Shown piece by piece: positions 20,403 through 50,806 of a DNA stretch of 54,705 nucleotides. Source of the DNA: Chromera velia (taxonomy: Eukaryota; Sar; Chromeraceae); the NCBI GenBank assembly GCA_018398765.1, contig JAHBMJ010000148.1, positions 1 to 54,705 on the forward strand, written 5' to 3'. Both the position numbers and the translations under genes were made by a program. The stretch's first letter is position 1, and each line of letters begins with the position of its first letter. The notes below the pieces were generated by a model. That model saw only the letters and a list, made by a program, of their open reading frames with translations, was not told where the DNA came from and did not search any database.

Positions 20403-20925
20403 ATGGATCTGCGGGCGGAGCCTGGACAGGTTTTGGGGGATTTGGGGGACGAGGAGGAGATGCAGGAAGCCTTCGATCAGCAGTCTGACGGTCAGAGCGT
20501 GGACTCACAAGACGAGGAAGGGGACGATAGGGGAGAGAGAGAAAGAAGGTTGCAGAATGGCAGAGAACGGGTTCGGGTTGTGGCAGGCCAGGATGGGGAG
20601 CCTGGTGGTCCTGTGCGTCATCCATATCAGCCGTATATGAAGGAAGAGGAGTGTGAAAAACTGGTCGCACACTCACGAAAACTGAGTTTTCCCATGCCGT
20701 TTCCCCCCCCTGGTGCTGGGGGCTCTTCGTCTTCTGCCTCTGCTGCCTTCATAACTCCCACAAAGGAGCTGGAGGGTTTGATCGAGGGAATGAACAAACT
20801 CCTGGTGGGCGCCGTTTGCCGGGGCCCCCTGAAGGTGGTCTCTTCCTCGGACAGCGAATTTCGAGTAGCAAAGGTCAGTCAGACTTGGAGAGACAGACAG
20901 ACGGACAGATAGATACAGGTAGACC

Positions 20926-20980
<55 letters not shown>

Positions 20981-21021
20981 CGACCGACCGACCGACCGAC
21001 CGACCGACCGACCGACCGACC

Positions 21022-21052
<31 letters not shown>

Positions 21053-21973
21053 CGACAGACAGACACAGACAGACAGACCGACAGACAGACGCACCGACCG
21101 GCTGCGCGACCCACGAACCCACTGACGGACTTGTTCATACACCCCTCCACACACACTCACACACAGGGGGAGAGAGAGAACAAGAGAGGGAAACTTCTAT
21201 GCCTTGCAAGGGTCTCGCTTGGATTCCGATTCCCATCCATCATGCCCGCTCCCACTCAGTCTTCTTTCCTCTATGACGTTCACTCAACGAGAAACGTTTC
21301 TCGCCCGTCCAACTTCACTGGATGAAGAGACAGATGATCTATGGATGACCCTTGGTGGCACTGGACCCGACTTTCTTTGCATTTTATGGGATAACGAAGG
21401 TGAGTGCCTGCCTGCCTGCAGTCGTTTGTGACTGTGACTGAAGGACCGGAGTTTCTCCTGAATCGCCACATTTCAGTTTTGGGGCTCCCTGACAGGAATA
21501 GAGCGTGGCCGGGAGATATCGTGGTGGTCTCGGTGAGTCAATTTTCCTCCTCCTACTCTTGTTCTTCGCTTACTTGTCCTTGTGCTTCTGCCTCCTGTCT
21601 CTCCTCTGCTGTGATTCCACTTGAAAAAGCTTTAGGTTTATATTTCTCCTATGGCTTGCCAAGAGAGCCGAGAAAGGACAGCAATGAAAGAAGGAAGCGA
21701 ACAAGAAATGACAGTCGGACAGAAAGGGTGAACGCTAGAGCTTGAGAAACAGGGTGATCTCTATTCTTTCCTGTCCTTTTTTCGAATGTGCTTCCACTCA
21801 GATTTTGGCTGTGGAGGTGTCCCGCTCTTTCCTTGACAAGCGGAGGGCGGCGTCCGATGGACAAAGGGGTCAGTCTGTCTGTCTGTCTGTCTGCATGCGC
21901 CTCCCTCTTCGACTTTAATTTCCTCCCTCTTTCCCTTCCTCCTCTTCCTCTCTCCCCCCGGTCCCCCCCTTTG

Positions 21974-22005
<32 letters not shown>

Positions 22006-25000
22006 TTCTTTCTTTCTTTTCTTTCTTTCTTTCTTTTCTTTCTTTCTTTCTTTCTTTCTTTCTTACTCTATCTCTCTTCGGGCGTCTTTGTGTGTCGGTG
22101 ACGGTCTCATTCTCTCTTCGTCTCTCTGTTCGCTATGGCTTAGTGAGCCCATTTGACATACTGTCACTTACACCTCTTGTTCTCCTCTCCGTCTTCCTGC
22201 CGTCTTCTCTTTTCTTCGCCTTCCGTTGTTTCGTCTCCCTCACCGTGAGTGAGAGCGTTTCCTGATTTCCTTTTGCATCTGTTTGTTTGTTTGTTTATTC
22301 AGGTGCAAGTTCCTCGTGCTCTCCCGAATTCTCTTTTGACCTCCTCAACTGCTGCACCATATACGGATCGGTCCTGAGATCCGACCCGCTGGAGGAAGAT
22401 CTTCGGCCTCTGCAGTTCGTGTGCAGGTTCGTTTGTTCGTTCGTTCAATCGGTTGTTCGTTGTTCGGTTGTGTAGTTGTGTAGAGGGACAGTCGGGGTCC
22501 TTCGCTTTGTTTCTGGCAGTCGAGTTCTTTCGCATTTACGGACTCTGTCCCCTTTCGTTGTGCCTCACAAGATCCTCACTCGTATGGCTCTCCATGTCTG
22601 TGTCTCGGCTCCACTTCTGTACATTCTTCTCGGCCCCCATTTTCCTAGTGATTCAGACGGCACTCTCCCCGTCGTTTGTCTGCCCGTAAGATACAGAGAG
22701 AAACTTCTGTCTGCGAGTCAGCCATTCTTCGCACTTCGGCAGCTGGGGATCTGTTGGCGCGCAAAAGGGACATCTTCTGCAGTCGCAACGGAAGTCAAGA
22801 CTGTAAATGCAGACAAGGGAGCAACAATTTGTTTCGGCTGTGCTACAACGGACCTTGCTCCAGCATATGCTTAAGGTTTTTCTCATTTCCTCTTTGCTCT
22901 CTCTCCTGTGTGATGGCATGGGTTTCATTCTTTTTGTCTCTGCTGCAGAGTGAACAGAATGCAGGGCCAGGACTCCGATTGGCTCTTCATCCCGCTGCAA
23001 GTCGGTGGCTGTATTTATCTCGTTTTTTGCCTCCCCAAAGAAGGAAGAAGAAAGAAGCAATCTGGAGTCTCTCTCTGTCTTTGCTTTTCCCTCTTGCGGG
23101 TCCATGCTGCCCGTCCTCTTTCTGTCGTGTCTCTCCGAGCTGTAGGGAGACAGTTCTCTTCTCTTCACTTTTCTCCACGGACTTTTCCTCCTGCCTCTTT
23201 CTGCATTCAAGCTTGAGTGCCACAAAGGCCGAATGCTCTCGCTCCACCCCCTCACGCTCCTCACTCGGTTTGCCGCCTTCCAGACGGAGTTTCCTTCCAT
23301 TCGGGCGAAGGTCTCTGGGACCCCCCTTGCGAGACGGCCAGACAGGGGAGAGAGACATCAGAAGAGGACAGTCGAAAAGTGGAGAAGCCTGCTGGCTGCC
23401 TTCCCCACACACCATCTGTATGTGATCAGGTGAGTTAGTCTCCTCCCTCTCTTCTTTGTACTGGGTCTTCTTGTCCCCTCTTACCCATCTGATTTTTATC
23501 TCTCTGTCTGGCAAGGTAAAAGCTCCGGTCGGCCCATGTGTTCATCAATCAAACCTGCTTCGGTTCCCACCCAGAAGATCGCGTAAATATCTTCTGCAGT
23601 TACTGCTGTTGGTGCAATGTTCGGTCCGTTTGTGTTGGTATGGTTCATTCGTCTGTGCCTGCTTGCGTACCTGTCTGCTTGTGCGTTTCCTCCCAGGATC
23701 ATCAAATGGTCTCGGAGGCACGTCCGTCCGCTTGGTCGGATCATCGGTCGTTTTCGTCAGCCCCTGGCGTCGTTTTCTCTCGACAGGATCCTCTCGATCA
23801 AACACACGGTAGAGCTCGATGCCGTCACAGACGCACCAGCGCTTGTTGTGCAGAAACAGAAAGAGAGGGAGAAAGAGGGAGCGGGGAGAGGAAATGGAAC
23901 TAGAAGGGGAAGAGGTGGGGCTCTTTCAGGAGGGTGGGTGAGGGGACGGAGACGTCTTTCGGGAGACTCCGGAGATGCGGAGGAGGAGCACGACGCATTC
24001 GCTATGATCTCTGATGGCGACGAGAGTGCCCGGTCGGAATCGTCAGAAAGCGCTGAGGAGTCCTCTGAAGAAGAAATGGATTCAGATTCAGAAAATGGGG
24101 GAGGCAGATCGAGATCGATTTCGGTTTCTTCCTCTTTCTCCGTTGAGTCGTGCGATGGCGACGCGAATGCAAATGGGAAGGTGGAAGGAGACAAGAGAGG
24201 CAGCGGGGCTTGGGCCGCACACGCGAAAACTCTCCTTATCGAGGGGCTGAGAGAAGACACCGACTGCCGAAAGGACTTCCGTGAGCTCCGGACTTTCTCT
24301 ATCGATCCCCCAGGGTGCAAGATTCCTGAGGACGCGCTGTCTGTGGGTGGTTTGGACCCGAAAACTGGAATTCGGTCAGGGGGGAATGGACTGGGAGGGC
24401 AGGCGGGAGGACAGACTGACGGCTGCCGAGACGAAGAAGAAAAGAACAAAGTGTCGGGAAAATACTTTCTGTGTTTGTTTTGAGACATTCAGTCTGAAAA
24501 TGATATGAACGAAAAAGACTTTCCTGCACATGGTCATTGGAGAATCTTTCTTCGTCTGCTTATGCACAGCTTTTTTCATGCGTTGCTTTTGGTTTTGTTG
24601 GATCAACAGGGTCTCTCTCTCTCTGTGTGTGGGGGGGGGGGGGGGGGNGGGGGGGGTCTGAATCACTGGTCTGTCTGACATGGGTATGTACTCACTGCAT
24701 GCAGGTCCGTGTACGTGCACATTTCGGACGCCGTTCACATGGTGCCCCCTGGATCCTCTTCGGAGACGGCAGCAAGGAGACGGGGGAGCGATGTGTTCCT
24801 ACACGACCACCACGGGAGGGAGAAGAAACACGTGCAAATGCTGCCAGGGGCTCTGGTGCATCAGGCTGTTTTTGTGAAGGGTCAAGATCGGCTGGGAATA
24901 ACTTTCAGGTTCTTCGAATGTTCTTTTTTTCCTGCCCCTCCCTCCCTTTCTTCCTGCCTTCCCTTCTTTCTTTCTTTCTTTCTTTCTTTCGTTCGTTCGT

Positions 25001-28000
25001 TCGTTCGTTCGTTCGCTCGTTCGTTCGTTCGTTCGTTCTTTCTTTCTTTCTTTCTTTCTTTTCTTTCTTTCTTTCTTCCTTCCTTTCTTTCTTTCTTTCT
25101 TTCTTCCTTCCTTCCTTCCTTCCTTCGGGGAACGAAGGACGTTTGGAGGTCTGTTATGTATTTGGTGCAGTCAGGGGTCATCGTTGTGTCGATGTTTCTT
25201 TCTCCCCTCTCGCTACTGCAGTTGCGCTTTGTTTTGACGAACAGAACAGAGAGGCACCTAAATGTTCCCCTCTCACACTCTCACAGAGGTACCAAATAAG
25301 GCAGGCCCTTCTATTTCTGCGGCCATTCTGCACAGGATTGGCACTGGTCCTCTTGCTTCAAAAGGACGTCTCCCCCATCCTGTTTGTCTTTGGTCTTCTT
25401 TCCCCTGCCTGTGCTAGCACGGCTGTCTGCAAAGCTCTACGAGATGTCCATACAATTTCGTGCGCTCCGTTTCTTCCGCCCTTGCAGGTTCGATGTGCAG
25501 GTGGGGGACTCGAGTGGGAGACAGTTGGAGGTCCTTTCATGTCGCGTGTTCCGTTCGAAGCTGAGATCCCAGGCCACGCTCTCGTACAGTCAGGCTGCAG
25601 AGCTCCTGCAGACGGGGCGAGTCGGGGTGAAACAGAGAGGAGCAGAGAATGTGAATGTAGGGGCAGGGAGGACGGAGGTGGAAGAGGAACTGATGGAGAC
25701 CGTACAGCTGCAGAGAGAGGTCGGTTTGTTCGCCTATCGTTTGTCTCTTTGCTTTCGTGCAGAGGGGGGGGAGTGTGAAGAGAAAAGGAGGGGAGGGCAT
25801 CCAGTGATGTGAAGAGACGTTTGAGTGAAAGAAAGAAAAAAGGATTGATGGGTCTTGCTTCACATTCGTGCGTTCCAAGAAAGTGAATTAAACGAGCCAC
25901 ATAAGTCTGTCTGTCTCTCCATCTTTCTGTGTGTCTCCGCGTGTGTGTGTGCAGATTTGCGAAAGTCTCCGTTTCCTCTCTCTGCTCGCTGAGGGCCTCC
26001 GTGAGAGGCGAATGGAGAGAGAGGGGACGCTTGGGATCGTGTATCAGGAAGATGACTTCCCTCCAGAGGTAGGGTCGCCTTGTTTGCCTTTGCTTCTATT
26101 CTGGTGGTTGTCCACTTGCCCCTTCTTCTCGACAGTTTACTTTTTGTGCGCATGGAGTAAGGAGGGTACCTGATGCCGCCCTTGTCTTTTCATGACGGAA
26201 GCGCAATGTAGGCTGACATGGTGTGTGTGTGTGTGTGTGTGTGCGTGTGTGTGTGTGGATCTGCAGGAGAAGATTTCCAGGCAGTTGGTGTCCGAGCTAA
26301 TGATCTGTGTGAACTCGTGGGCAGGTGCACGTCTGATGGAGAAGTTGGGGGGGGACGGTCCGAGGTGGGTGGGTCCTTGTTGACTTTTCTTTTCTTTGCC
26401 TTTCTTCCTTTTTTCTTTGCTCTTTTTTTCCGGCTTTCAGTTTTTCTATCCTGGGAGACCGACTTGAGGATTTCTTCCCATACTTCTTCTGTGTCTTTTT
26501 CTTGTAACTAGGCTCTCACAGGTCCTCTCGTTGCTGGCAGACAAGAACTGCCTCTGAGATGAATGAAGTAACTGAGCAGACAGAGATCATACACAGTCTG
26601 TCACCAGGGCTGTGGTTGGATGCTCGATCATCTTCCGTCCCTTCACGAAGAAGACGCAGATGCTCGTTCTGACACACGTTCACCGTGTTCAAAAAGGAGA
26701 TAAGGAAAAACGCTCCACATCCAATAAATGGATGTACACTCACTTTGACTTCTCCGCTGATCCCTATGAATGAGCATGCATGCATGCAGACGGGTCCATC
26801 CCTGCCCCGACCTCCAGTGGACAGAGGCGGCGGCTTCTCTCTCTCTGGCTGCCGTCCCAATGTCTAACGTCAGTTGTTTGTTTGCTCCCTTGTTTTGCAA
26901 CGTTCCCTGTGAACTGAAAATACAGAAAGCAACAGTGAAAGTCAGACAGACGGAGAGAAATGAGGCATCCATCCAGCGACCCTTTTGCTTCCACTATCGA
27001 TCCCTGATTAATCCGGCCTGCAGGAGGAGCGTGCCCGCCTCGCCCCAAAGCTCGACTTCTCCTCCTCCGTCACTGCATGTCACGACACAATGATCAGAAT
27101 CGCAGAGCAGATCAAGGTGGCAGTCAAGGACGCTCAAGAAAACGCAGAAGACGATGAGGACGAAGAGGATCGACCCCACAAAGTAGATGAAATGGTCCGC
27201 TCGTTCGCTTTGCTTGCTTGTTTGCTTGCTCGGTTGTTTGTGGGAAGGAACAGCGGGCAGCAGGGAAGGGAGCGTTTGCTCCTCAAATCCTGCCTGCCTG
27301 TCCTCCTTTCTGTCGAGGTGAAAAAAGCGGCTCTGTTTATTTTTGTTTTGTTGAGGTCGTTTTGCTATTTGCCTCTGCATGTTTTCTTGGTGCGCTGCTT
27401 TTAGAAGGAACCAGACAAACAGCCAGCAGGAATGCAAACGTCGTGAAGTGCGTGCACCTGTCTCTCAATCCTCTCCTTGAGCTTTTTTTGTGTTCACTTC
27501 TTCCTTGCTCTTGTTGGGCCTGCAGATTCGAAGTTTTCTGTTTGCAATTCGAGGCCGCCTGTCTTCCCCTGAATACTTCTACATCCCCGTGGATGCCCCA
27601 AAGGAAAAAGAGACCGTGAAAGGACACTCCAAGCCTGACGACCTGTTCAAGGCCCTTAGCCAGAACGCAATCGCACACAGCAACATCCAGCAGCAGAAAC
27701 AGAAGGCGATGATGCAAACGAGAGAGTTAGTCGGTCAGGCAGGCAGGCAGCTCTCTGATGAATCCACGACAGAAGCGAAAAAGAGAGACGTCTGAGGAGG
27801 ACGTTTTTTTTGCTTTCATTGGTGTCGTTTTTCTTTTGGTTGATGTGGGAATGGCTGTGCGCAATCCACAAGTATGTCGACTCGCAAACTGAACGCTCGT
27901 TGTTATTTCGGCATCAAGACGAACACTGTGCACGTGTTTGCATGCAGGAACATCGAAAATCTGGAGAGGGACGCAGAGGAGTATCTGGCACTTGAGGAAA

Positions 28001-31000
28001 AGGAGGCCCGCTCTGTCTATCTGAAGAGTGTGCCTTTGGGAGAGGTCAGTCTGCTCAATCCTCTTTTTGAGCTGTCTGTCTTTCTGTCTGTTTGTCAGAA
28101 CTTTGCCTGCAACGACAAAGATGGCCCACATATTTTCTTGCCATCGGACATTCGTTTGGAGGGTGTGAAAGTGATCTGAGGTCACGGTGGCGTGCTGCAC
28201 TCAGGGTCGCAAGGCGGTTCTCTGAACGAGACCAGAGAGCCCGATTTGCATTGATCTTTCTTCTCCTTTTTTGCCCTCTATCTCTTTTGTTTTCTTCACT
28301 CGATCCAACAGAAGTTGCATTTTTTCCTGTCTATTTGACTCTCTACCTATCTGCATGCATGCACTCAATCAATGATGCAGGGCGAGGAAGACTCTCTGAG
28401 GGACATTTTGGGTTCTGTGGGGGACCTAGAGTCCTTCTGTCTCTTTCCTCCTGGAGAGTGAGTGAGTGAGTGAGTCAGGGAGGCAGGCAGCTACGGAGGG
28501 GTTCGGTCATGAGGGACTCAGCGGGAGGGAGGAAGGGAGGTTGTGTGTGTGTGTGTGTGTGGGTGGCTTGGGNNNNNNNNNNNGGGGGGGGGGGGGTGAG
28601 TAGGCGAGTGGCTGGGTGGTTAAGCATGCAGCCCGACCAGCCGGGAGACATGCAGTTTTCGGACTTCTCTTTTTCTCTCAAAACTTCTTACTGACTGACC
28701 CACTTACTCACTCTCCGTTTCCTTCTGTCTCTCTGTGTCTGTCCTCCGCTTCGGTCTCGTGATTCATCCAGCCTCTTCTCTCTAGCTAGGGATGATCACT
28801 CCATGGACAAATCCCTGATTCCTCTCTCTCTGAATCCTTCATCATTTCTTCCGTCCTGCCTCCTGCCTGTCTGCAGAGGTTGGAATGCCCGGTGCGGTAT
28901 TGCAACATTCAGAGAGCCTTCAGCAGCTGCACGTTGCCTTAGCGAAAGGAGAATGAACGGTCTGTCACTGTGCTTTCGTGTGTCGTCATGTTCTGCTTTT
29001 TTTCGGATTCCTCCGTCCATTTTCCTCCTTCCGTCATTCCTTTCTGATTCCTTTCCTCCTCTCTTCATTCTGTCTTAATTTATGAATCCATTCATTCATT
29101 CATTCTTTTCTCCATTCCATTCCTCTTTCGCTTCTGTTCTAAGCCTTCTCCCGCGAAGGTTCTTTTGGATTCTTTTTTTCGTTCTTTCTCCTCCTGTGAT
29201 TCTCCGGTACAGGTCCCTTCAGCGCCTGTCTCGGGAACATTCAAATTCTTGAGTGGAGGGATAAGACAAGGGAAAGCCTCGAGCAGAGGCGCGAGGTCAG
29301 TAGCTCCTCTTGGCTCGGTCTTGATGTTTGGTTTCCTTCCTCCGGCTCGGTCTTGCTTCTCTTTTCAGAGTGGAGGAAAGCTTTGGTGATTGGCTCGAGG
29401 TGAATCAAAAATGCTCGCTGTCCTTTCTCGGCTCATGTTTCTGCTGTGCTCTCCTGCGGTTGATGGCTGTAAGACATTTTCCTTCGACCTACAGCTCGGA
29501 GAGGCATTGAGAGGAACGAGAGAGAGGGATCATCCGTTCAATTACTTTTTTCTTTCGGTATTGTTGATAATTCTCTTCTTGCCTGTGCTTTCATGAATGA
29601 TTCCCTTTGCTCCTTTCCCCTCCTACCATGCCTTCCTTCACTCCAAGTATGCTATGCTGCCTGCCTGCAGGTACGGGACATGGCGGCGCGCATTAAGTGC
29701 AGACGGCAGGGCATCCCCGAACCCCCTCCCCTTCCACCTCCCCCTCCACCACAGGCACAGCAGAGGGCTTTCCCGACTGACTACAGACTCGCGCCCCCTC
29801 CTCCAGAGCCCTCAGCAAATACAAGAAGCCCTGCAACTCTGTTTCCCCAAATTCCGGGGGTGATGCCGGGGCCCGTTGCCGTCTCCGGTCCCGTCTCGTC
29901 CTTCCCGCTCTTTGCAACAGACCCCTACTTCCAGGTCACATCTCCCATCAGGAGGTCAGTCGGTTCGTTTCTATGTTGCATGCTCACCACTCTCACTGAT
30001 TCGCTTAGCACGCTCGCATTCACAGACTGACTCATCCTCTCAAGAAGCAACGCATTCATTGGAGTCTCAAGTGCGAATGTGCGTTGATTTGCTTTCCGTC
30101 CCTGCGCCAAAAGACTGCCAAATGACTCTTGAAGCTTTGTGACACTTTGCGTCTCCTCTCCTCTTCTCTTCTCTTCTCTCCGTGCAGATACGTGGACCTA
30201 ATTGGCTTGAGACTGCTGCTTTTACCGTCCGCTTTCCTCCACTCACTGAGGGACTCCGCAGAGAAAGAGAATGAAGTCGAAACAGCGCAGGGAAACAAAA
30301 AGAAGAAAAAGAAGAAGAGGGGCGACGGCGAAGGCGGGGCTGGAGGATCCGAACCACCGCCGAGCGACGAGGGTCACATGTTGCTTCCCCTGGAGTTTCC
30401 CTCTTCCTCCAAGGGACACGCGCTCCGGAATGCGTACAGAGACTGGGTGAGGGAGCTGCCCTCAACGGTTCTCAGGTTCAATCTCTTGAACAAAAGGGTC
30501 GGTCGGTCAGTTCAGTCCTCTCTTGCTCCAATGATCTTGTGAGAAGAGAGGAGAATAGTCGAACGAACAGGCATGAAAGAAAGAAGGGCGGTTGAATGAC
30601 GGGGACAACGTTGGGGGCATCCGGAAGGTGGACTGACTGACGTGTTGATGTGTGTGTGTACTTCTGTGCAGTAGTTTTGCTTTTTGTTCTGCCTGCCGTG
30701 TTTTTCACACCGCTCTAAAGGAAGAAAGACGCCTTAGAAAAAGAAGAAGAATGACGCCGCAATTCCTCAAGAGAACCGGTGATCGCATCTTTGCTCGAGC
30801 CCTCCTGTACTGCAGCAAGGGGGAGGTAGTGGAAACCCCAGACTCTCACCATCTTTCTCAGAATGTGTTTGTATCGAGTAGTGAGTGCCTTGCCTGCTTT
30901 TTCTCATTGAGTGCATTCAGGTGCGGGAGGTCCAGAAGGAGTTTGCCCTTCTCTCCCTGTGCCGTTGGATTGCACACGCAACAATCCGGGTGAGGGCCCT

Positions 31001-32003
31001 GGTGGGACCCCTGAGACCCTCCTCTATACAGCTGATCTTCCCAGGGGACTTCTCCCACAAACTTCCTATCAGGACAATGAGACTCCCTCTCGGATCTCTC
31101 AGGTCTGTCGGTCGGGTCAAAGGCCTTCTTCCTCTCTTTTCTGCTTCCAGCCTTCCTTCCTTTCTCTCATCGATACATGGTGGTAAATTTCACTCAGCCT
31201 CCAAGAGCCTTCGCCGCTTCTTCTTTTCTGTCTGTCTGTCTGTCTGTCAGGTCGGAACGCATTGTCGCGGCCCTGGAGGAAGCGGTGGTTCGGAGGCTGA
31301 AGTCAGACAGAGTGGTGATCAAGCCAGACTTCGACGTGGCCAACCCGGGAGGGGGAGGGGGGACCCCCCCTCCTTTTGTGGAAGTCAGCTAGTTGAATCT
31401 GCATGGATTTGATTCGACTGTTTTGTACTCAGGGTCGGATATGTGAAAAAGTGATGAAGCACTGAATCGGTCAAATTCAATATAACTCTCTGTCAAGGAG
31501 TCTCGGGCTGACTCCCTTTGTGCCCCGACCAGATTCATCGGTCTTCAATTGGAAAAGAAAGAAGAACGGCAAAAAGCGGCCAGGAAACATGGTAAGAAAG
31601 TATGCTTCTGCATGAGGAGTGCAAATCAAGACTCAACCAGAGAGGGGGGGAGGCAGGAAAAGAAATACCGTTCTTCAACATCTGTGTGGGGCTGTCTCAA
31701 CAGACCAAGAGCCAGTATGAAGCCTGCATGTGTTTTTTCATCGGGTGTTTCATAAATGTGTCGATCCTCGTCGTCGACATACATGCAGGTCGCTCTAAGT
31801 GCGTTCAAGACTTCCGTTGACGTGGAACTTGGGCTGAACAAGACGCTGCCAGTTCCTTGGGGAGCGTTGTCGGTGATGGCGCTGCACCTGTGCGAGCTCT
31901 CTGACCCACCCCTTCCCCCTGTGCTCCTGCCGGACCCTGAGGGACCCCCCCCTCCTTTCGTCATTTTTGCCAAGAAGAGTCCCGATTGCTTCCGGTCAGT
32001 GTC

Positions 32004-32055
<52 letters not shown>

Positions 32056-32057
32056 GT

Positions 32058-32095
<38 letters not shown>

Positions 32096-35000: not shown

Positions 35001-35610
35001 ATTGTTTCCACTTTTTCGATTAAGGCACAAGCATAATAAATCATGCAGCCACATCTCTCTGCTCGAAATTCTTGTCGATGCGCGCACGAATCCATCCATG
35101 TACGAGAGAAGCTGAACTACTGAATGTATTAACATGACCGAGACAACCATTTCTGGATGAACAAGAGAACGAACGATGATGGAATGAAATGCAGATCACG
35201 GCCCTCCAGTCCCACGACAGAGAGGTCTTGAAGGCGTTGCGGGCCCTCGGACGAAGAGGACAGGGGATGCAGAGCATGACGACTCTTCTTGCTGAGAAAA
35301 TGGTGCGTCGGTCGGTCGGTCGGTGGATGCAGACCGAAAGGGTCGTCGGGTTTGTTCTGTAAAGTCACTCGGTTGGTGCGCTTCTGTGTGGTGGGAGGGA
35401 AGGGCTTTGGTTGGCGTGATGAGTGGAGGGAAAGGGCATGCATGGGGGATCAAGCTGCTGCCCTCTCTGCATGCGTTGTCGAAGAATATGTATTTGTAGC
35501 AATTAATCTGCATCTTTCCTTCGTCATTCTGCCTCATTTCTTCAATTCGAAAGAGGACCAGCTTCTCTGCGCCGGCTCCTGCGGGGGAACGGAAATCGTC
35601 CAATGAACAG

Positions 35611-35641
<31 letters not shown>

Positions 35642-37129
35642 CTCCTGCCGGCCAACGCACGCACGTATGCGCAGGTTGTTCGAAGCCCCGAGACGACAGC
35701 GTGGCTCCGAACCCACCTGAAGAAGAAGGAGGGAGGGGGCTGGTGGAGGGATCTGCCCCCCACAGTGCTGTCTGCCGTCGGCATGCCCGAGGCCAACGAG
35801 TTCCAAACAAAGGCGGTCAAAATGGCTCTCGGACATTCAATCAGCTGTGTGCAGGGCCCGCCAGGCACAGGTAGGGGTGTACGACTGTTCGTTCCTTTTC
35901 TTCTTTCTGTCTGTCTCTGGGTCGACTTTTTTCTTTCAGGCGCACACACACACACAGCAACATGCACAGGTTGGCCCGGGACTACCTGATTGACGTCCCA
36001 TGCCTGCCTAATGCGATCTCGAGAGGACGCACTCTTGGACTTTTTTGACGTCAGGGGCAATCAATTCAACTCTGACTCTGATCGTTTCACATTCTTGGGC
36101 AATTCGGCACTCTCTCTTCAGGGAAGAGCGTGACGATCGTGCACATCGCCAACGCCCTCCTGGTGCACATGGATATTCTGAATAGAGAGTACAAGCTGCC
36201 CCGTCAGAGGGTGCTTCTCTGTGCTCCTTCAAACAAGGCTGCAGGTGGGCCGGGGGGGGAGGGCTGATAGTGGGCATGGCGTGGGCGTACCTAAAGAAAG
36301 TCTTTCTTGCGACATGCAATTTGCACACAGCAATTGTGTACTTAGATCTGCTCAACTGTAGACTCGCTTCGGCCGCTCTAAAGCCCCACGCGGCATCGTT
36401 CTTGAAAGAGGTGCAATTTTGCTATTGCGTAAGCGTCCTTTGACTCTTCTCGTTCCGTCCCCCCCCCCCCCCNCCCCCCCCTTTTGTCTGTCCGGGTGAC
36501 TGCAGATGCCCTCCTCCAATTGCTAGTCCAATTTCTCGAAATGCGAAAGAAGGAGGAGGAAAAAAACAGAGGAGGAGCATCAGCTGCATCCCAAAACAGC
36601 GCCATCGGAGAACTGGACCCGCAAAAACTCGTCACTCGAGTCTACGCGCGGTCGATTGAACAGAAATTCTGTCCCTCATGGAGAGTCGATGCAGCCATGC
36701 CGGTGGGTGGGGGGGTCCATCAAGTGGTCTCTCTGTTCATTTAACTGTGCATCAAGAATTCGCATAACCCAACTTGGTGAAAAATACTTTCTTTCTCTCT
36801 GGACCTTTTTCTTCTCCTCTTTTTGATGCATACAAAAAAACTTGGTGAATCCAAACGTCTTCCTCCGCTCCCACCATGTCTCTGCACCTTTCTCTTGCAG
36901 GTCCGAGAGGACTTCGACATCGCCCCTTCGCTTCGCCGATTTGCTCTCCACGAGAAGGTGCGCCTGTGTACTCTGCATCTCAGTGCGCCGCCTTCCTTCA
37001 GGGAAAAGAATTCTGTTTGCCGTTCCTTCCTCAAAGGAGAGCACCCAACTTCGGTCCCCCCCCCTCCTTCCTCCTCTCTCTCTCCCTCCCTTTCTCTCCT
37101 CTCTCTTTCTTCCTCTCTGTCTCTCTCTC

Positions 37130-37210
<81 letters not shown>

Positions 37211-40200
37211 GTGTGTGTGTGTGGAAGGAAATGTACGTGTGTGGAGTCTGCAGGTCCGAAAGCGGCACCCTGACATCGCGCAGTGGGAGGCGATGATGCG
37301 TCCGGAGTCACCTCAGGACAGGAAGAATTTTTTCTTTCTCAACCAGGTCTGTCCTGCATGTTGGTCGGGCCTGTCAGCTAAGGGAGACGACACAGAGAGA
37401 CAAAAGAACAGAAAAGAAAAGAAAAGAGGAGAAAAGAGAAGAAGTGTGATGGGGACTGCGGGTCAAAACGACATTTTGGTGCTTGGCAGCGAAATAAGTC
37501 CTTTTTGTGCGTCCGTTCAATCTGTTTGGGGGGCATGCGTGAGGAGGGCCGCCGGTATCGGAGAGTCGGGCCGAAGGCACGGGCTTAGACGTTGACCAAA
37601 ACTCTCTCGTTTCCTCATTTCTCCCTGCAGAACGAGATCAGAGCGCACGAAGACAGGATTACGGAGGTCGAGCAGGAGCTCATTGGCGAGACCAAGTTCG
37701 TCGTCGCCACCTGCGACTCTGCACATCTCCGCTCGTCTATGGCGGTACGTCTGCTTGTTGAGAGCAGGGAGTGACGTATGTTTAGTGCAAACATGAGGAG
37801 GCACATCGATTCTAGACCCGATTGAAACAACGTACAAAGTCCGAGATTCACTCAAAAGCACATAGACACACAGACAGATACAAAAAGAGAGAAAACAAGA
37901 GAGAAAGGGCGGGCGAGGGGCAGTGAAAACCTATTGGTGAAAAACTAACTGTGTAGAGTCTCTTCCCCCGTCCCGGTGGAAAACGCTCACATGCAAACCT
38001 GCCAGTCTCCTGAAGAGGCCTGCGGCTCGAGAAGTAGAAGAGTTTGAAAAGGAGAAGCAATTGATTTAGATTGGCTGACTGACAGATCCCTTTCCCCTTT
38101 TCCCTTCTCTAAGATTGAACGCGAACATTCCCTTACCTAACGCTAGAAGTATCCGCAACTGGATACGAATGGCGATCATGGCGCGTCATGGTCATAGTCA
38201 CCCCCCCTGAATCTCTCAGACCGAGTCCTTTGAAACTGTCATCGTCGACGAGGCCGCACAGGCAGCGGAGGTCGATGTGGTCCTGTGCTGTCTCAAGGCA
38301 ACAGAGCGCATTGTCTTGGTCAGTCTTATCTTTCTTTCTCTTGATCGTTGGCCTTCTTCCTCTTTCCAGTTTGTCTTTATTTCTCATCAATGTGTATCAA
38401 CGGAAGGGCTGGCGAGAACATGGAAGATTGGAGGGCAAAAATGGTGCTGTGTTTCGCTTCAACTTCACCCTCTCAAATCAGAAACGAGGAGAGGCTATGT
38501 TGACCCAATGTCCTTTGTGCCCTCTTCTTCGTTTTCCCCTCAGTCAACCGCTTTCGTTTCGTCACACTTCATCACTCTATGTCGGTAAGCAAGACCTGAC
38601 TGCAGGCACTTTCTTTCATCATGCATGTGGAAAGAATCTGACTGACTCCGTCCTTGCCTGCAGGTGGGAGATCACCAGCAGCTGGGTCCTGTGGTGACGG
38701 AGAGGAATCTTCTCCCAGGAGTCTACAGGGCGCTCTCCCAGTCTCTGTTCGAGAGGATTTTCGAGGACGGAGGGCAGGGGCAGCCGCCGAAGAAAGGGGA
38801 CAACAAACGGCACCTGCTTCATGCACCGGAAGAGGAGAGGGAAAAGAGAGTAGATGTCCACAAGAGCCTGGTTCCGCACATCACTCTGAGGAAGCAGTAC
38901 AGAATGCACCCTGCAATTCGGGAATTTCCTTCCAGAGAATTCTACGCAAAGCAACTGAAGGACTCGGAGGAAATTGAGACCATGAAGGTCGGTCAGGCTT
39001 GTAGAGAACTTCTTTCGAGACGACTGACTTATTGTGTTCCCTCTCTTCGCTTTTTGCACTTCTTTTTCTCTTCATGCCTCCGATCTATTCGCTTTCTTAC
39101 CGTTAATACATGTTTTCTTCGTGTCCTTTCTTCCGGCTCGCATTCCACCCACCTTTCTCTTTTTCCGATAAGCTGATTTTCGCTCTGCAATGTCTTTGCG
39201 GCAGCCCCCGGAAAGCTTCATCCTCCTCTAGGAATGATCGACATTTTGTTGTACCCTCCCTGTCCGCCTGCTTGCCTGCCTGCTCGTGTGCGTGTGCGTG
39301 TCTGTCTGTCTGCTCGCTGAACATTCGAATGATCTGTGTGTGTGCAGCTCCTGGGGGACGACTCGGAAGTCTTCCCCTGGCCTGCCGGTCCCGACTGCCC
39401 AATTTTGTTCTGTGACGTGCGCTGTGCCCACAAAACCTACCAGGTCGGTCTGTCTGACGGGTACTGTCCGCAGAACACTTTTTCTAACGGCGTTGTGTTT
39501 TGGGAAAGAGGGATCGAGTTTTTTGGCCCACAAAACAATTACACAAAGACAAATAGGAGCACACAGTGTGTTGCAATTTCCAGGAACAGCAGTATGCAAC
39601 ACTCCCAAACAGCAGAGATTGGGAATTAGTTTTCTTTGTGCAGAAGGAACGAAGAACAAATTTCTTTGTTGCCGCGATTTGCACTTTGGACCATTTGTTT
39701 GTTCTCAATCCCAACAGCCGCAGAGGTTGGATGTTCGCGATCAGGACTGTTTGTCTTCTCTCTCTCTCTCTCTCTCTCTCTCTGGTTCAGTCTTGCGTTT
39801 ACACCTCGTTTGGATGTTGATGGGTTGATTGGATCGCAGTGGGTGACTCTGTTTCTTTGGCCTCAGTTTATTCTGAATTCCCTTCGTTGGTTTTTGTGTT
39901 GACTTAATTCCCTCCCTTAATTCTGTTCCGTTCCATTCGATCTCGCATGCAGAGTGCGCGGGAGGGGGACACGGAGGGACAGGCGGGGGCGTCAACTGGT
40001 CTCTCCACGAAATGCGTTGCCTTCTCTCTGGTCAATCAAGGTTGGTCAGTTGATTGACTGTCAGGGCGGGGAGCGAGCAGAGCGGCAGGACGAACTCTGA
40101 GCAGGTACCCTCATGTAAAGGAATTTCATCGAGTGGAGCGCTCTGTGCCTTTATTTTCGTTTTGTCTGTGCTTGACGAGTGGTTAGGGGCTTCGCATAGG

Positions 40201-43200
40201 TTGGGGTATGACGCTTTTTGTCCAAAGATATGTCTGTCTGTCTATCTCGCTGTTTCGAAGGAGGTAGGATGCAATGCAACGAGACAGCACTCTTACTTTT
40301 GACATTTTCTCTCAGAATCTCCTTTGCATGTGAGGCTTCCCCTCGATGCTGACACTCTGCTTCAGTCGATGAGCCCTGATTCACTTTGATTTCTTTCATG
40401 TGGCTGTCTGGTTTTTTTTTTTTTACCCAATAACTCCCGTTGAACAATATGCTTGGGACCCTCCACTCGACTGCGTGCAGGGGAAATCCACATGGTTCTC
40501 AAGTCAGTAGTCTCTTTCTTGATCACGTTTTCTTTCTGCTTCTCTTCCTTCCTTCCCTGAGTCGATCGATCGATCGATCCGTTCTCTCTGTCCTGCCTTG
40601 ACCCTGTGCCTGCATGCCGTCTTTCTTGTGGTGTATGTGCCCTTCCCCCTCTCTATGCTCGTCCCTTGGAACGTCAACAAACCCTCCCCGTTTGATCTTC
40701 GACTCTGCCTCTCACATTCCTGCGACTCCTTTAGCTCGAGTTCCTTCCCCTCTCTTTCTTCTCTCCCTGCAGGTGCTACAAGTACCTCCTCGCCAAGGGG
40801 ATACTTCCCAGGCAAATGGCAATTTTGACGCCCTACAAGGCACAAGCGGTTCGGATCCGTTTTCTTCTGGAGCAACACGCAGAGCAGGCACGTCACGTCA
40901 GAATGGGGCAGGCAGGGGATCGTGCACGCAGCAGCCAATCCTGTCAGATTGATGCGGCCGATTTTGTTCAGCTGACACTTCGAGCTACGAACCAGAGGGG
41001 TGTGGTGCTGATTGGATAAAACCTCAAAACGCCCCGCCCCTGCATCCGCATGCCTTTGCCTCTTCTCCTTCAGATGTTCCATTCTTCCTGTATATTTTCT
41101 ATTTGTGTATGCTTGCAGAACGGCCTCGCTTTGAGTCTGTATTGTATTGTATTATTGTATTTTATTATTGTGTATGTTTGTTTACTCTTCCTGTGTTTTT
41201 GTGTGGGCATGCTTGCAGAACGGTCTCGGTTTGAGTCTGGGAGAGTCCGGAGAGGAGATTCTTCCCGTCGTGGGGACTGTTCACGCTTTGCAGGTACCTC
41301 GGTGTGAACGGGAGGGGACGGGGGAGAGGTTTTAGCGTTTTTTTGTGTTGGTGTCCTTCTGCTTGTCTCGCTTCTTGGTCTGTGAGTACGACTGCTCGAC
41401 TGAGTCACTTTGCTGTTTCTTCACCACAGGTGCTCGGTCGGAAAGCAAGATAGATCGTTTGGTACTTTCATGTCGGTGCATGTTTGGTTTGATGAGTTTG
41501 TTGCAGGGCATGGAAAGGGAGTACGTGTTGCTGTCGTTTGTACGGTCATTCTCGGAAGGAGAGCTTGCGTCGGGGTGCTACCATGAACTCGGGCTGCCGG
41601 CAGAGCTGCTGGCGTCGGGGGGGTCCGGGAGGGACGGGGTGGGGCTGCCTCGGCAGAAGGGGGGTGAGAGGGTGTTCAGGGAAGTTGTTCGGAGAATGAT
41701 GAAGACGTCTCTCGGGTTCCTGTCCAACCATAGGTCGGGGGGAGGGGGGTGCTTGTCTGTTGTTTTCTGTGTAAGCAGGAGCATGTATCTACCTTCTCAC
41801 GCACGCACGGGAGGCTCGGTATGTCTTCATCCGAGGGATTCGGAAGGAGGCATACTGATGGCTTGATCGAGCACATGTATGTTTGCGTCTGTGTGTGTGT
41901 CTGTATTTGGATGTGTGTGCAGGATTTTAAATGTGTGTCTGACGAGAGCCCGACGAGGCCTGATGTTGTTCGGGAACGCGACCGTTCTCTCTGCAGACTC
42001 TTCTCTGGAACGCTTGGTCTGTCGGTCTGTCGGTCGAAAGGACAAGAGTGCTTCCTGCAGGGTTGGAAAGGTCTTGTGTTTGGGAGGACTATTCTTCTGT
42101 CGAATATTCGGACGTGGGTGTCGCTGGGTCTGTGAGAAAAAAATCCCATTTGGGTGAATTTTGGGGAGTTTGAAATTTCCGATCCATCTGTACTCTTTCT
42201 GTCTCCAACTCCCTTTTTTTGTTTATCGGCGAGCCGGCGACAGACCGTCAGCACACGCTCACATGCCAAAATACGAGATGAGAGAGCCTTTTTTCTGCCT
42301 GATTCATTCACAAAATGAGTGCGAGGTGCTTGAACGACTGAATGAATGGGTGTGGGTGAGTGCAGGTTCAACACTTCAGGAAGAAAAAGGCGTTGATGCT
42401 GTCAAGTGCCCTGGAGAGAGAGTTGATCAGACAGGACAACGCGAGCGGACTCGGAAAGGCTACAGTAAAGCTGCAAAGGGAGAGGGAGAGACTCGAAGCA
42501 GAGAGGGCGGGCAGGGCAGTGGCAGGCAGCGGGGGGGGGTTCCCGATGGACCGGGACAGAGACCAGCTTGCGAGTTTGTTCTCTGCAGGGGCGTCTCTAT
42601 CTGTGTTTGCGTCTCCGGACGAAGTGAATGGGAATGTGAACGGGCAGGGGGGGAAGGAAGCCGGGGGCATAGAGGACATGTCGGATTTGGAGCGTGCGTG
42701 GGGGGATATTTGGGATGAGGCCGGGGGAGAGGGAGGGAACGACCCCGCATTCAGAGGAAGTCAAGTAAGTCGATGCACCCGGCCGCCGATACGCTGAAGA
42801 CGCGATTGAAAGACTTCTTCTGTCCTTTTTCCTTGCATTGAAACAGCTTTGCGAAGGGCATGGATGGGGGATGGTCTGCGGTACTCGCATCATCTTCTCC
42901 TCTGGTCTGACTCCCTTTTTCGTCGTCGCCGCTCTACACAAACCAAAGCGTCCCTTGCCATACACCGTCAGCGTCAATCACCAACATCATGTGCGTCTGT
43001 TTGCTCCCTCTCTCTCTCTGTGTGTGTGTGGGTGCACAGGGGGACCAGAGGACGGGAAGAGACGGGACCGGACTGGGGCCTCCATCCATCGCAGATGTGT
43101 CACAATCGCAATCGCAACTCATGTCGGGGCGTCAGAGCGAGGTCTGTCCGCCCTGTGTCTCTGTCTCTGATTTTCTCTTTTTGGTTCGTCCTGCTTTACC

Positions 43201-43724
43201 GACGAGAAAAATCAGAATCAGTAGTCTCTATTTGCATTTCTGCAAAATGGCAACACGATGGCATTTCTGTTGATTGCAGCGAGGGAGCTCGTTCCGCTCG
43301 CAAAAATCTCATTTTGAAATCTGCGCGTGTTCCTCTTTTTGTGTTTCGGTTCTTGCTGTTTTCTTTCTTTTAGGTGGACTCAGGCAGTGAGTTTGACTTT
43401 GAGTCTTCTGATGAGGAGGAGGACCCGCACGGAGCTGGGGGCAAGGGGAGAGGAAACGGGGGGTTCTCTGGGGGAGTCGTTGGGGGGTTGTCCTCGAATT
43501 TCGATAATTTCAGGTGGATGGGTGGGTGGGTGGGTGGGGATCGCACGTTTTCCTTCCTTTTCTCTTTGGTGGGGATGCACGAGACAGCGTCGGAGGGAAA
43601 CGAAGGGAGAGGGAGGCAAAAACTGTTTATGTCTATCACTATCACTTTCAAGTGCTCGGACTGCATTGGCTCACATTTGGTACTGTTCACTTCTGCTGAT
43701 GGAGGGATCCGTCTTTTCAAGTCA

Positions 43725-43763
<39 letters not shown>

Positions 43764-43800
43764 TCCCTCTCCCCCCCCCTCTCTCTCTGTCTGTCTGCCC

Positions 43801-43840
<40 letters not shown>

Positions 43841-45157
43841 ATCCGTCAATGTATCTTCCTCAAGCTGTATCTATTTGTCCGTATCTCTGCTTGTGCGTTT
43901 GTCCCACCGCCTTTCTCCCTGATTCACTCTCTCCTACCCTCTTCTGCTCCTCCCTCCCTCCCTCCCTCCCTCCCTCCCTCCCTCCCTCAGGGACCCGTTG
44001 GCAAACACCGCACAGGGGGAGGGGGAGTTCACATTCCAGAGAAAGAAGGGGAGGGGAAGAGGGAGGGGAGGAGGGGGGGGAAGAACAGGGGTTGTGGCTT
44101 CAGGGCTGCCTCCCCAGTCTCCGCCCTTCGCCCCGGTATCCCGCACGTCGGCGTCTGGAGAGGGAAGACGGAAGGCCCCTCAAGCCCCCACGCCCTCCCC
44201 ACCTGCACCAAGCAGAGTCAATCCAGGAGTTCCAAATCGCATACAAGAGGAGCGAGCAGGACTGCGTCGAAACGAGGAGGACTACGATGACTGGGCTCCT
44301 CCCGTACCTCCTTCTCGGAAGGATATGAGAAGCGAATTCAGTCCTTCTCCCCCTCCCCCCCAAAATCAACAGAACCACGGTGCTTACAGAGAAAGAAACG
44401 GAGGGGGGGGGAGGGGGCGAGGTGGGTTGCCTTCCCCTCCGGGATTTGAGCAAGCCCCCGGCATGGACTTTGTATCCTCCTCCCCTCTGGAGACGCCCAC
44501 TAGGGGCCCCTCCGGACCCCCTCGAGGCCCCACCGCCTCCACCTTCCCCTCCTCGAGTTCTCGCACAGACAGAGAAAGGGGGGGTATGTATCCACATGGA
44601 GGGAGAGACATACATGAGTACGGGCAGTACTCTGGCAGTCACAGTCCGTATGATCATGGTGGTAGAAGGGGGAGGGGAGACGGGGGGGAGTTCAGGGGGG
44701 GCATGCAGGGACCGGGTTCTCCCTTCTCAGGAGGAGGCGACGAGGAGCATCTCTGGAGAGGGACCGCACCGTCCCCACAGCCGCCGCCGCCTCCTCCCCC
44801 CCCTCCCCCACCGCCTGGACCCCCTCCCCGGCTACAGCAGCCGCCGCAGCAACAACAAGCGAATGGAGAGCCTCCACAGTCCTGCCACCTGTGCCCTCAG
44901 CCTCTGGGGCTCTCACGAGAGTCCCAGAAAGCCCAACTTTGCCTCAGTTGTCTGACGGAAATGAGAGACGAGTGGGAGTCAGTCAAGAGACAGGCAGGCA
45001 GGAAGGAAGGTGACTCAGAGAGAAGAGGTGTGCACCAATCAATTTACATGCGTACACATGCCTTCCGGTTTTCTTGAATGTTCTTTTTCTTTCGTCACAG
45101 TTCCCTCCAGGAGTACCAGATTCTTGCCTACTGTGTGAGACGCAGGCCGGCTCTTGA
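20403..45157 (+). CDS. RNB ribonuclease - CCCH zinc finger - UPF1-type SF1 helicase fusion, ~2,980 aa
   Basis: About 54 exons join in compatible phase into one polypeptide (exon lists are in the domain entries). The start ATG at 20403 sits in AGCACCATGG. Order: acidic N-terminus, cold-shock-like region, RNB domain (about residues 330-1270, split by low-complexity inserts), OB/linker (about 1270-1635), CCCH finger (about 1660-1690), SF1 helicase (about 1790-2410) and RGG/Pro-rich tail with CxxC pairs. The RNB hallmark TSPIRR|YVDL spans exons 21-22, near 30 kb, so coding continues past the point where a separate upstream gene would end. RNB followed by a UPF1-like helicase is known in animal HELZ2, which also carries CCCH fingers. 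The expected role is 3'-5' RNA turnover with unwinding. The RNB acidic cluster is altered while all helicase motifs are intact. Uncertain points: the start of exon 2, the start of exon 16 and the last acceptor. A two-gene model is possible but needs in-frame coincidences at many junctions. Confidence 0.78.
20884..21100. repeat. (ACAG)n/(ACCG)n microsatellite in intron 1
   Basis: A long GACA/GACC run starts ~10 nt downstream of the exon 1 donor GTCAGT and has the same tetranucleotide register family. It generates long Gln/Thr/Asp and Ser/Val frames that are not coding. Confidence 0.95.
21970..22066. repeat. (TTTC)n microsatellite in an intron
   Basis: A pyrimidine tetranucleotide run in intron 4 of the fusion gene. 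Confidence 0.95.
24622..24656. other. Poly-G tract with an ambiguous base
   Basis: A run of more than 20 G with one N inside it, located in intron 8 of the fusion gene. It is probably a sequencing-limited homopolymer or a hidden short gap. Confidence 0.8.
24964..25128. repeat. (TTTC)n/(GTTC)n compound microsatellite
   Basis: Alternating blocks of TTTC and GTTC/GCTC lie in intron 9 of the fusion gene, downstream of donor GTTCTT. Confidence 0.95.
26220..26258. repeat. (GT)n microsatellite upstream of exon 12
   Basis: A GT run ending a few bases before the acceptor CTGCAG at 26266; it stands in place of a polypyrimidine tract. Confidence 0.9.
26790..30497 (+). other. Fusion gene exons 13-22: RNB second half with large inserts
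   Basis: Exons: 26790-26868, 27024-27194, 27526-27729, 27919-28044 (start could be 27948 only if phase were different), 28099-28170, 28381-28457, 28877-28959, 29213-29295, 29671-29954, 30188-30497. Exon 13 (RRVHPCPD) corresponds to the family RRHPPP segment and exon 14 ([12 protein letters not shown]) to the SSS helix. Exon 15 ([10 protein letters not shown]) corresponds to the LxRSM block. Exons 16-20 are a family-atypical charged insert. Exon 21 carries a Pro-rich insert and then [12 protein letters not shown]; exon 22 continues [11 protein letters not shown], has a Lys run, and ends LRFNLLNKR. The conserved SPIRRYxDL arginine and tyrosine are intact. Confidence 0.75.
28573..28583. other. 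Assembly gap of 11 N inside a G-rich run
   Basis: Eleven undefined bases are flanked by GT-rich and poly-G sequence, in intron 18 of the fusion gene. True length is unknown, and a missing exon here cannot be ruled out, though flanking phases already agree. Confidence 0.95.
30721..33437 (+). other. Fusion gene exons 23-30: OB/S1-like end of RNB module and linker
   Basis: Exons: 30721-30825, 30921-31102, 31251-31383, 31498-31599, 31789-31994, 32332-32419, 32743-32924, 33333-33437, all phase-compatible. Exon 23 ([17 protein letters not shown]) and exon 24 ([19 protein letters not shown]) resemble the end of the RNB helical region and a following beta-barrel. Exons 27-30 include [28 protein letters not shown] and basic [12 protein letters not shown]. 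This part has only weak family resemblance. The OB/S1 assignment is inferred from position and strand pattern. Confidence 0.6.
32005..32100. repeat. (CT)n(GT)n microsatellite
   Basis: A compound dinucleotide run right after the donor GTCAGT of exon 27 (exon end 31994). Confidence 0.95.
33834..34386 (+). other. Fusion gene exons 31-32: CCCH zinc finger
   Basis: Exons 33834-33920 and 34239-34386 join in phase 2 and split the finger one residue after its first Cys. The joined motif is [11 protein letters not shown], then [12 protein letters not shown], a C-x8-C-x8-C-x3-H finger ending in the FAHGExEL signature typical of TTP/HELZ-type RNA-binding CCCH fingers. The middle spacing (8) is longer than the usual 4-6. 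It lies directly N-terminal to the helicase, as expected for an RNA-recognition module. Confidence 0.8.
34645..35302 (+). other. Fusion gene exons 33-34: helical linker
   Basis: Exons 34645-34704 and 35195-35302 are both phase 0 at each end and encode charged helix-like sequence ([31 protein letters not shown]). They join the CCCH finger to the helicase. Confidence 0.65.
35608..35639. repeat. (CT)n polypyrimidine repeat before exon 35
   Basis: A CT run ~35 nt upstream of the acceptor for the exon encoding helicase motif I, probably acting as its polypyrimidine tract. Confidence 0.85.
36465..36481. other. Poly-C tract with an ambiguous base
   Basis: A C homopolymer containing one N, in intron 36 of the fusion gene, 25 nt before the exon 37 acceptor. 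Confidence 0.85.
37077..37230. repeat. (CT)n then (GT)n microsatellite
   Basis: A pyrimidine run followed by a long GT run in intron 38 of the helicase part. Confidence 0.95.
41100..41245 (+). repeat. Local duplication of a 3' splice site and exon start
   Basis: GCTTGCAGAACGG followed by TTTGAGTCTG occurs at about 41112-41140 and again at 41211-41240. Only the second copy continues into the conserved motif V exon (41219-41293). The first runs into AT-rich TATTGTATT repeats. Confidence 0.8.
42366..45157 (+). other. Fusion gene exons 50-54: RGG/proline-rich tail with CxxC pairs
   Basis: Exons: 42366-42764, 43040-43141, 43374-43513, 43991-45009, 45111-45157 (TGA at 45155-45157; an acceptor at 45101 with another donor is possible). 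Exon 50 begins [17 protein letters not shown], the end of the helicase C-lobe, then a coiled coil ([15 protein letters not shown]). Exon 52 is acidic. Exon 53 is a long Gly/Arg (GRGRGRGG) and Pro-rich segment with poly-Pro. It ends in CHLCPQ plus CLSCLTEM, a C-x2-C...C-x2-C pair, and exon 54 adds another CLLCE. The tail is likely RNA- or protein-binding. Confidence 0.65.
43733..43990. repeat. (CT)n, (GT)n and (CCCT)n microsatellites before exon 53
   Basis: The intron before the RGG exon contains a CT run (43733-43800), a GT run (43805-43838) and a CCCT run (about 43950-43988) that directly abuts the acceptor CTCAG. The CCCT run likely serves as the polypyrimidine tract. Confidence 0.95.
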
Positions 45158-50672: not shown

Positions 50673-50806
50673 TGAAAGGGCGGCTGCCTGTCTACCTGTC
50701 TTGTGTATCGGGTTATCTTCTCTTCCTGTCTGGTTTGGTATATGAGTGGTTGTGGCGGTGGGTATATGCTCTTCGGCTTCCTATCTTCTGTCTCTCGTCC
50801 CTGTCT

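Follow-up and report, generated by a model that had tools for sequence, protein, structure and literature searches.

An RNB–helicase fusion gene of Chromera velia, shared with dinoflagellates and probably related to animal HELZ2

Background

HELZ2 is an interferon-stimulated, LINE-1-restricting protein of animals in which an RNB domain is followed by a UPF1-like helicase and preceded by an additional one; its RNB domain is reported to degrade RNA 3'→5' in vitro, and helicase mutants of the human protein lose LINE-1 inhibition to a greater extent than the nuclease mutant (PMC9839780). Here we describe a gene of Chromera velia, on contig JAHBMJ010000148.1 of assembly GCA_018398765.1, in which an RNB domain, a CCCH finger and a UPF1-like helicase are predicted to be joined in one chain; the whole stretch of 54,705 nucleotides that was analysed is called the window below. 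Judged by sequence, the gene is a member of a family with the order RNB, subdomain 1B (with its CCCH finger) and helicase that is common to the window and dinoflagellates. Its product is likely to be a single-chain factor for remodelling and decay of RNA and ribonucleoproteins (RNPs), from a protist family for which animal HELZ2 is the probable sister.

UPF1/NAM7 proteins resemble the window protein in their helicase core, with the motifs of helicase superfamily 1 (SF1) and, as a putative likeness seen by eye in an alignment, the stalk and subdomain 1B, and differ from it in having no RNB domain and, in UPF1, a zinc-binding CH domain. Ssd1 and other RNase II pseudonucleases are not known to have a helicase. 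These pseudonucleases are described as having lost catalytic Asp residues while keeping the RNB fold (PMC8934651, PMC8097288), which is also the likeness between them and the window protein; they constitute a separate lineage, set apart by architecture only. Four Asp residues are found in active RNB members: Mg binding is ascribed to the first, third and fourth, contact with the RNA end is made by the second, and loss of a catalytic Asp is taken as inactivating (PMC8097288).

Gene structure and domain organization

The rebuilt gene model comprises 49 exons on the + strand (20403-45077) and has one open frame of 2,878 amino acids, whose sole stop is the last codon. Its 48 introns are all GT-AG, 148-579 nt long (median 326.5), with G at position +5 in 94% and C at position -3 in 98% of them. 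The first-pass annotation of this DNA had proposed a protein of about 2,980 residues ending at 45157, encoded by phase-compatible exons without a stop, with the RNB signature TSPIRRYVDL split by the exon junction 29954/30188; the single long protein, the open frame and the junction were all recovered, whereas size and end are revised to the values given above. Exons were called with a splice-aware finder bootstrapped on the gene itself and were afterwards curated by hand, so that the model is not blind.

Evidence independent of splicing came from a profile of nine relatives, built without the window protein and compared with the 1,791 six-frame stop-to-stop open reading frames (ORFs) of at least 15 amino acids in the whole window. 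Eighteen of these unspliced ORFs matched at a domain E-value ≤0.2, all on the + strand and all collinear with the profile (rank correlation to genome position, 1.0); in the linker zone between RNB and helicase, matches followed in order at 30.9 kb (2.5e-5), 31.8 kb (0.066) and 34.2 kb (6.9e-4). Against the spliced protein, with E-values that refer to a search of one protein only, the same profile matched residues 132-336 (3.8e-31), 509-759 (1.8e-24), 1106-1137 (1.7e-10), 1208-1775 (6.3e-59) and 1804-2314 (2.2e-118). The stretch 1208-1775 spans the linker exons 21-32, the CCCH finger and the beginning of the helicase.

The Pfam scan covered residues 1-1430 and 1431-2516, and detected RNB (PF00773, 1.9e-34), AAA_11 (1.8e-40) and AAA_12 (2.3e-38). 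Among solved structures in the Protein Data Bank (PDB), the best relatives were DIS3L1 for the RNB part (7.4e-13) and NAM7/UPF1 for the helicase (2.3e-35). All SF1 motifs looked for, with roles taken from general knowledge of the superfamily, are present. The protein has only one helicase domain, and Pfam found no AAA family before the RNB domain in residues 1-1430; nor were a CCCH family, OB_HELZ2 (PF25049) or a CH domain found at E≤1 in the residues scanned. Pfam, the finger pattern and the collinear profile bear out the arrangement proposed by the first-pass annotation, namely RNB, then CCCH, then a single UPF1-type helicase in one gene, unlike the helicase-RNB-helicase plan of HELZ2. Of the domain matches by which that arrangement was to be checked, those to RNB and UPF1-like AAA families were obtained and that to CCCH was not. 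The features of the gene are as follows.

20403..45077, + strand: whole gene, 49 exons, GT-AG introns; collinear profile matches
20796..23733, + strand: putative cold-shock-like (OB) region before RNB, residues 132-336, exons 1-7; profile 3.8e-31
24250..27152, + strand: RNB core, residues 509-835, exons 7-13; Pfam 1.9e-34, DIS3L1 7.4e-13, profile 1.8e-24
24298..24339, + strand: RNB active-site motif, residues 525-538; D527 and D536 kept, I533 and E535 replacing Asp
27160..29895, + strand: insert inside RNB with Pro-rich end, about residues 840-1100, exons 13-19; per-exon profile table
29938..30191, + strand: second RNB signature TSPIRRY, residues 1119-1125, split by intron 29955-30187; profile 1.7e-10
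30921..31102, + strand: putative S1-like segment after RNB, exon 21, residues 1228-1287; unspliced ORF match 2.5e-5
32332..35302, + strand: putative helicase stalk and subdomain 1B, about residues 1401-1660, exons 24-30; alignment to HELZ2 and UPF1, profile 6.3e-59
33916..34302, + strand: putative CCCH finger CX8CX8CX3H, residues 1554-1576, split by intron 33921-34238; pattern and alignment
35675..42368, + strand: UPF1-like SF1 helicase core, residues 1691-2304, exons 31-45 plus the opening codon of exon 46; AAA_11/AAA_12, NAM7/UPF1, motifs
42474..44880, + strand: acidic, Gly/Arg/Pro-rich low-complexity tail, residues 2340-2814; sequence composition
44883..44951, + strand: C-terminal CX2C...CX2C pair, residues 2815-2837; pattern, with a presumed function

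The name cold-shock-like for residues 132-336 is a provisional one, the resemblance to the DIS3L1 cold-shock region being sub-threshold, and the name S1 for residues 1228-1287 is likewise putative; the first part of the linker aligned with that of HELZ2 in hhalign over 83 columns (probability 50.7; reversed control 0.1). We are less sure of residues ~795-1100, which are encoded by exons 13-19 and consist largely of an insert that does not align, of residues 1-131 and of the low-complexity tail past residue 2340. The insert inside RNB (~840-1100) aligns poorly to the type A relatives described below and is the least certain part of the model.

The first output of the exon finder, with 228 exons, was over-split and was replaced by means of higher site penalties and curation by hand. 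A candidate exon at 29369-29399 was left out because its phase would give a stop, and the donor at 24452 was passed over for that at 24374, of the same phase, the longer form adding 26 residues inside RNB. Short runs of N at 24648, 28573-28583 and 36473 lie within intronic G- or C-rich runs and represent assembly gaps; none falls in a called exon. Exon 43 shows a partial tandem duplication of its acceptor together with its first bases (41096-41139 and 41196-41239; 44 nt, 84% alike, 100 nt apart), of which the copy lying upstream may be a nonfunctional acceptor or an alternative one.

Relatives in dinoflagellates

A protein search with the helicase region, in which 8,000 candidates were scored, gave 1,297 matches at E≤1e-6. 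Among the best 120 of these, which were examined, 43 also carry an RNB domain, 32 of HELZ2 type and 11 of alveolate type. The latter include proteins of Polarella glacialis, Cladocopium goreaui, Symbiodinium sp. CCMP2592 and S. microadriaticum, as well as P0003, P0005, P0007, P0009, P0010, P0012 and P0013, the last with a symbB gene name and so presumably from Breviolum. Three of the records (P0009, P0010 and P0012) come from EukProt under TRINITY transcript names, and in these RNB and helicase share one ORF. An alignment-based search of 8,000 candidates gave 13 matches at E≤1e-20, the fusions among them being P0005, P0122 (Prorocentrum cordatum) and P0123 (Symbiodinium natans, named 'UPF1'), the last two of which were new; it returned no HELZ2 proteins and is not a survey of the fusion across eukaryotes. 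In viral contigs, none of 600 pattern matches was confirmed. Among the papers listed by literature searches (in two cases 20 of 130 and 14 of 15 matches), none was about such a family outside animals, judged from titles and abstract openings. That the nearest relatives are dinoflagellates fits the alveolate-alga character that the first-pass annotation had read from the DNA.

Two types can be distinguished. Type A (P0005, P0122 and P0123) has the domain order of the window protein, its CCCH loop and its low-complexity tail followed by a C-terminal Cys/His pair, which in all three takes the form CX3-4C...CX2H; a search of the window for the region following this pair in type A gave no match. 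These proteins differ from the window protein in keeping the first, third and fourth Asp and, in P0005, in a TPR domain weakly matched beyond the tail. The window protein groups weakly with type A, with support of 80/45 in the helicase tree and 92/71 in the RNB tree. Type B (P0002 from Polarella, P0004 from Cladocopium, P0006 and P0008 from Symbiodinium, and others) also has RNB followed by helicase and falls in the same clade; it differs in the loss of all four Asp, in a finger that is short (P0002, P0010) or gone (P0006, P0012) in the aligned rows and in extra N-terminal domains.

Further domains were noted in some of these records. The last 180-200 residues of the type B proteins P0008 and P0009 resemble a Hint-like (hedgehog/intein-type autoprocessing) domain (Hint 7.7e-6 and Hint_2 0.002, respectively, both below curated cut-offs), and P0008 has repeated Cys/His-rich CCCH-like units ahead of RNB. 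The precomputed domain lists of P0009 and P0013 contain PF11717, which we take to be Tudor-knot.

The CCCH finger and subdomain 1B

The pattern CX8CX8CX3H has a single match in the whole protein, at residues 1554-1576. Shuffling the linker of the window protein yielded the pattern in 7 of 5000 trials, and shuffling those of relatives in 44 (P0005), 16 (P0122), 159 (P0123) and 77 (P0010) per 5000; the designation as a putative CCCH finger comes from the pattern together with its matching place in relatives. In alignment, the finger falls in the hairpin loop between the strands GHVIKVPDN and EIAIELR of an animal UPF1, and so appears to lie within helicase subdomain 1B. The UPF1 regulatory loop, which also sits in 1B and affects RNA affinity (PMC8657986 and PMC12305709), seems to be a neighbouring loop, distinct from that of the finger.

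The pattern occurs in five of the 14 alveolate-type rows (window, P0005, P0122, P0123 and P0010). A full-length CCCH between RNB and helicase was found in the window protein and in all three type A rows; the match in P0010 uses an upstream Cys, and the finger that P0010 and P0002 show when aligned is of the short form CX4CX4CX3H. P0006 and P0012 have no finger in the aligned rows. Of 32 HELZ2-type linkers, one matches the pattern and is not alike.

The RNB active site

The active site was compared in 24 aligned rows, comprising the window protein, 10 HELZ2 proteins, 10 of type B, P0072, P0005 and one DIS3. The window protein has D527, I533, E535 and D536 (codons starting at 24304, 24322, 24328 and 24331) and therefore departs from the signature DxxxxxDxDD of RNase II/DIS3 exonucleases, which is complete in E. 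coli RNase II and RNase R. The three metal-binding Asp are present in 10 of 10 HELZ2 rows and the second Asp in six of them; the metal ligands are also complete in P0072, and no Asp of the four is missing from the DIS3 row. Type A proteins P0005, P0122 and P0123 keep the three ligands, with V, I and M, respectively, at the second place, whereas type B rows have lost all four Asp and show a 3-residue gap in 10 of 10 cases. The metal site occupied by E535 in the window protein is Asp in all 13 other non-type-B rows, and also in P0122 and P0123. Thus, loss of the second Asp is common to the window protein and type A, and the Glu at a metal site is additional to it.

These replacements suggest that the RNB active site of the window protein is eroding, and by the published rule of thumb the protein would be classed as a probable pseudonuclease, though the change from Asp to Glu is conservative and some activity may persist. 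The first-pass annotation had supposed that the chain could degrade or bind and unwind RNA; given the altered site, degradation is the weaker half of the proposal. The altered RNB active site, the sharing with dinoflagellates and the apparent position of the finger within 1B are points that it did not foresee.

Relation to HELZ2

HELZ2 and the window protein share RNB, an S1-like/1B linker and a UPF1-like helicase in the same order. HELZ2 differs in its additional first helicase, in an OB_HELZ2 domain (P0014, P0015), in its three metal-binding Asp and in having no similar CCCH between RNB and helicase; lacking the first helicase, OB_HELZ2 and the full metal site, the window protein is, on its sequence features, not HELZ2 itself. 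In a careful helicase tree (60 rows, 427 columns), the window protein and 12 relatives formed one clade (support 100/99), the 16 RNB-following helicases of HELZ2 formed another (100/99), and the two joined at 100/95 to the exclusion of UPF1, SEN1 and other rows. HELZ2 first helicases were left out of this tree; P0008, being close to P0006, was omitted from helicase trees and linker profiles; and the sampling was without HELZ, MOV10, DIS3L1 and DIS3L2. In approximately unbiased (AU) tests, with groups named after the tree had been seen, forcing the alveolate rows together with UPF1 gave p-AU 0.028 and forcing HELZ2 with UPF1 gave 0.038. In plain local runs, the alveolate linker profile (13 rows, window included) matched that of HELZ2 (16 rows) at 94.6% (E 6.4e-8, 331 columns), compared with 0.2% in each of two reversed controls and 0.5-2.5% for the upstream regions of UPF1, SEN1 and MAA3-type proteins. 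P0072 (jgi, 2,677 aa) has the helicase-RNB-helicase plan of HELZ2 and pairs with a sponge Dysidea row in both trees.

We consider it probable from these comparisons that one old RNB–helicase fusion is common to the alveolate family and HELZ2, and the fusion probably predates the divergence of alveolates from animals or was transferred a single time from one lineage to another. Several observations weigh against this reading. The AU p-values are modest. HELZ2 matches UPF1 1B at 97.0%, so that the linker signal is partly a general helicase one, and the type B linker subset alone matches HELZ2 at 8.4%. For 1B itself, the alveolate profile matched HELZ2 at 56.5% and UPF1 directly at a weak 19.6% over 32 columns; stalk and 1B of the window protein were aligned to UPF1 by eye, and the assignment leans on the HELZ2/UPF1 alignment. 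In a quick tree that included seven HELZ2 first helicases, alveolate, HELZ2 and other rows met at an open fork. The RNB tree (29 rows, four of them outside both fusions) cannot place the fusion and was not used for it, because it gives three clean groups that are unrooted and hence no sister pair. A search with the RNB region among 8,000 candidates (E≤0.01) recovered a single protein, the DIS3-like P0001, and missed every fused relative, which suggests that the RNB half is far diverged. It is also possible that HELZ and MOV10, both unsampled, are nearer kin of HELZ2.

Alternative explanations

The indecisive RNB tree, the open fork of the quick tree and the weak match of the type B linker would all suit an independent fusion, in which a DIS3/RNase R-type RNB and a UPF1-like helicase were brought together separately in an alveolate ancestor and HELZ2 resembles the product through convergence; so would the overall plan, with no first helicase, no OB_HELZ2 and a finger in 1B. 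Nevertheless, we regard this explanation as unlikely, given the grouping at 100/95 with the very helicase of HELZ2 that follows RNB, the AU rejection of grouping with UPF1, the match over the whole linker and the RNB-then-helicase order common to both. Between the deep ancestry and the independent fusion that the first-pass annotation had left as alternatives, the careful helicase tree with its AU tests thus favours the former, and the fork of the quick tree stays open.

A different question is whether the protein is an active exonuclease-helicase, in which Glu535 substitutes for a metal-binding Asp and RNA is degraded 3'→5' during unwinding. D527 and D536 are kept, Glu is a conservative replacement that need not kill activity, type A relatives hold three metal ligands, and two mammal HELZ2 rows are also without the second Asp, carrying Y or N there; moreover, Dss1 is described as tolerating Glu at the second site (PMC8097288). 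These points count against a pseudonuclease, but the consistent Asp at the position of Glu535 outside type B, the large insert inside RNB and the inactivating effect ascribed to loss of a catalytic Asp make an active enzyme rather doubtful. Finally, gene structure is known here from genomic sequence alone and function is deduced from folds, which also weighs against our interpretation, and a model of this kind, with intronic simple repeats and Ns and with some exons that align weakly to relatives, might have falsely chained two neighbouring genes, one for an RNB protein and one for a helicase, by exon joining. Such a pair of genes is very unlikely, because residues 1208-1775 match relatives across the linker and the unspliced + strand ORFs follow the order of the family profile; in addition, the relatives are single proteins, some of them transcriptome-derived.

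Other open frames in the window

On the - strand, 51352-51945 and further frames within 49242-52494 are open frames with IALDKCPGVRPVGIGEAIRRLL...GGLEGGIHTVREL, which presumably recall a retroelement reverse transcriptase; the best Pfam E-value for four of these frames was 0.047. Long open frames on both strands at 6950-18083, six of which were searched in Pfam (best E 0.18), may be compositional. Rfam gave no match in the window.

Proposed mechanism and implications

UPF1-like motors travel 5'→3' on one strand. We postulate that the ATP-powered motor of the window protein would move in this direction along a single strand and, on a tailed duplex, would displace the partner strand starting from the 3' end of that strand. 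This is the end that an RNB channel would accept, and the displaced strand could then be captured by the RNB part. Since RNB accepts 3' ends, such capture would be a natural job for a chain with both parts. In type A the captured strand may be degraded; in the window protein (D-I-E-D) the RNB part would more likely be a weak nuclease or an RNA clamp, and in the type B dinoflagellate proteins it would be a pseudonuclease. In UPF1, RNA is closed over by the subdomain in which the CCCH finger appears to be placed, and the finger could tune the grip on RNA or confer a sequence preference. Taken together, the window protein is most likely an ATP-driven RNA/RNP remodeller in which the predicted RNB channel serves chiefly to hold RNA and acts as an exonuclease weakly or not at all.

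More tentatively, and as a proposal that we hold to be somewhat short of an even chance, the RNB–helicase fusion may be an ancient machine of eukaryotes, already in place when the animal and alveolate lineages separated, to which alveolates added the finger in 1B and of which at least one paralogue line turned the exonuclease into a clamp for the displaced strand. A protist family with the RNB–helicase module of HELZ2 would give HELZ2 an older origin in RNA surveillance. The intact, intermediate and lost active sites within the family may serve as a natural series on the role of the nuclease in proteins whose function may depend mainly on the motor, and the finger in 1B would offer a testable route to RNA preference for a UPF1-type motor.

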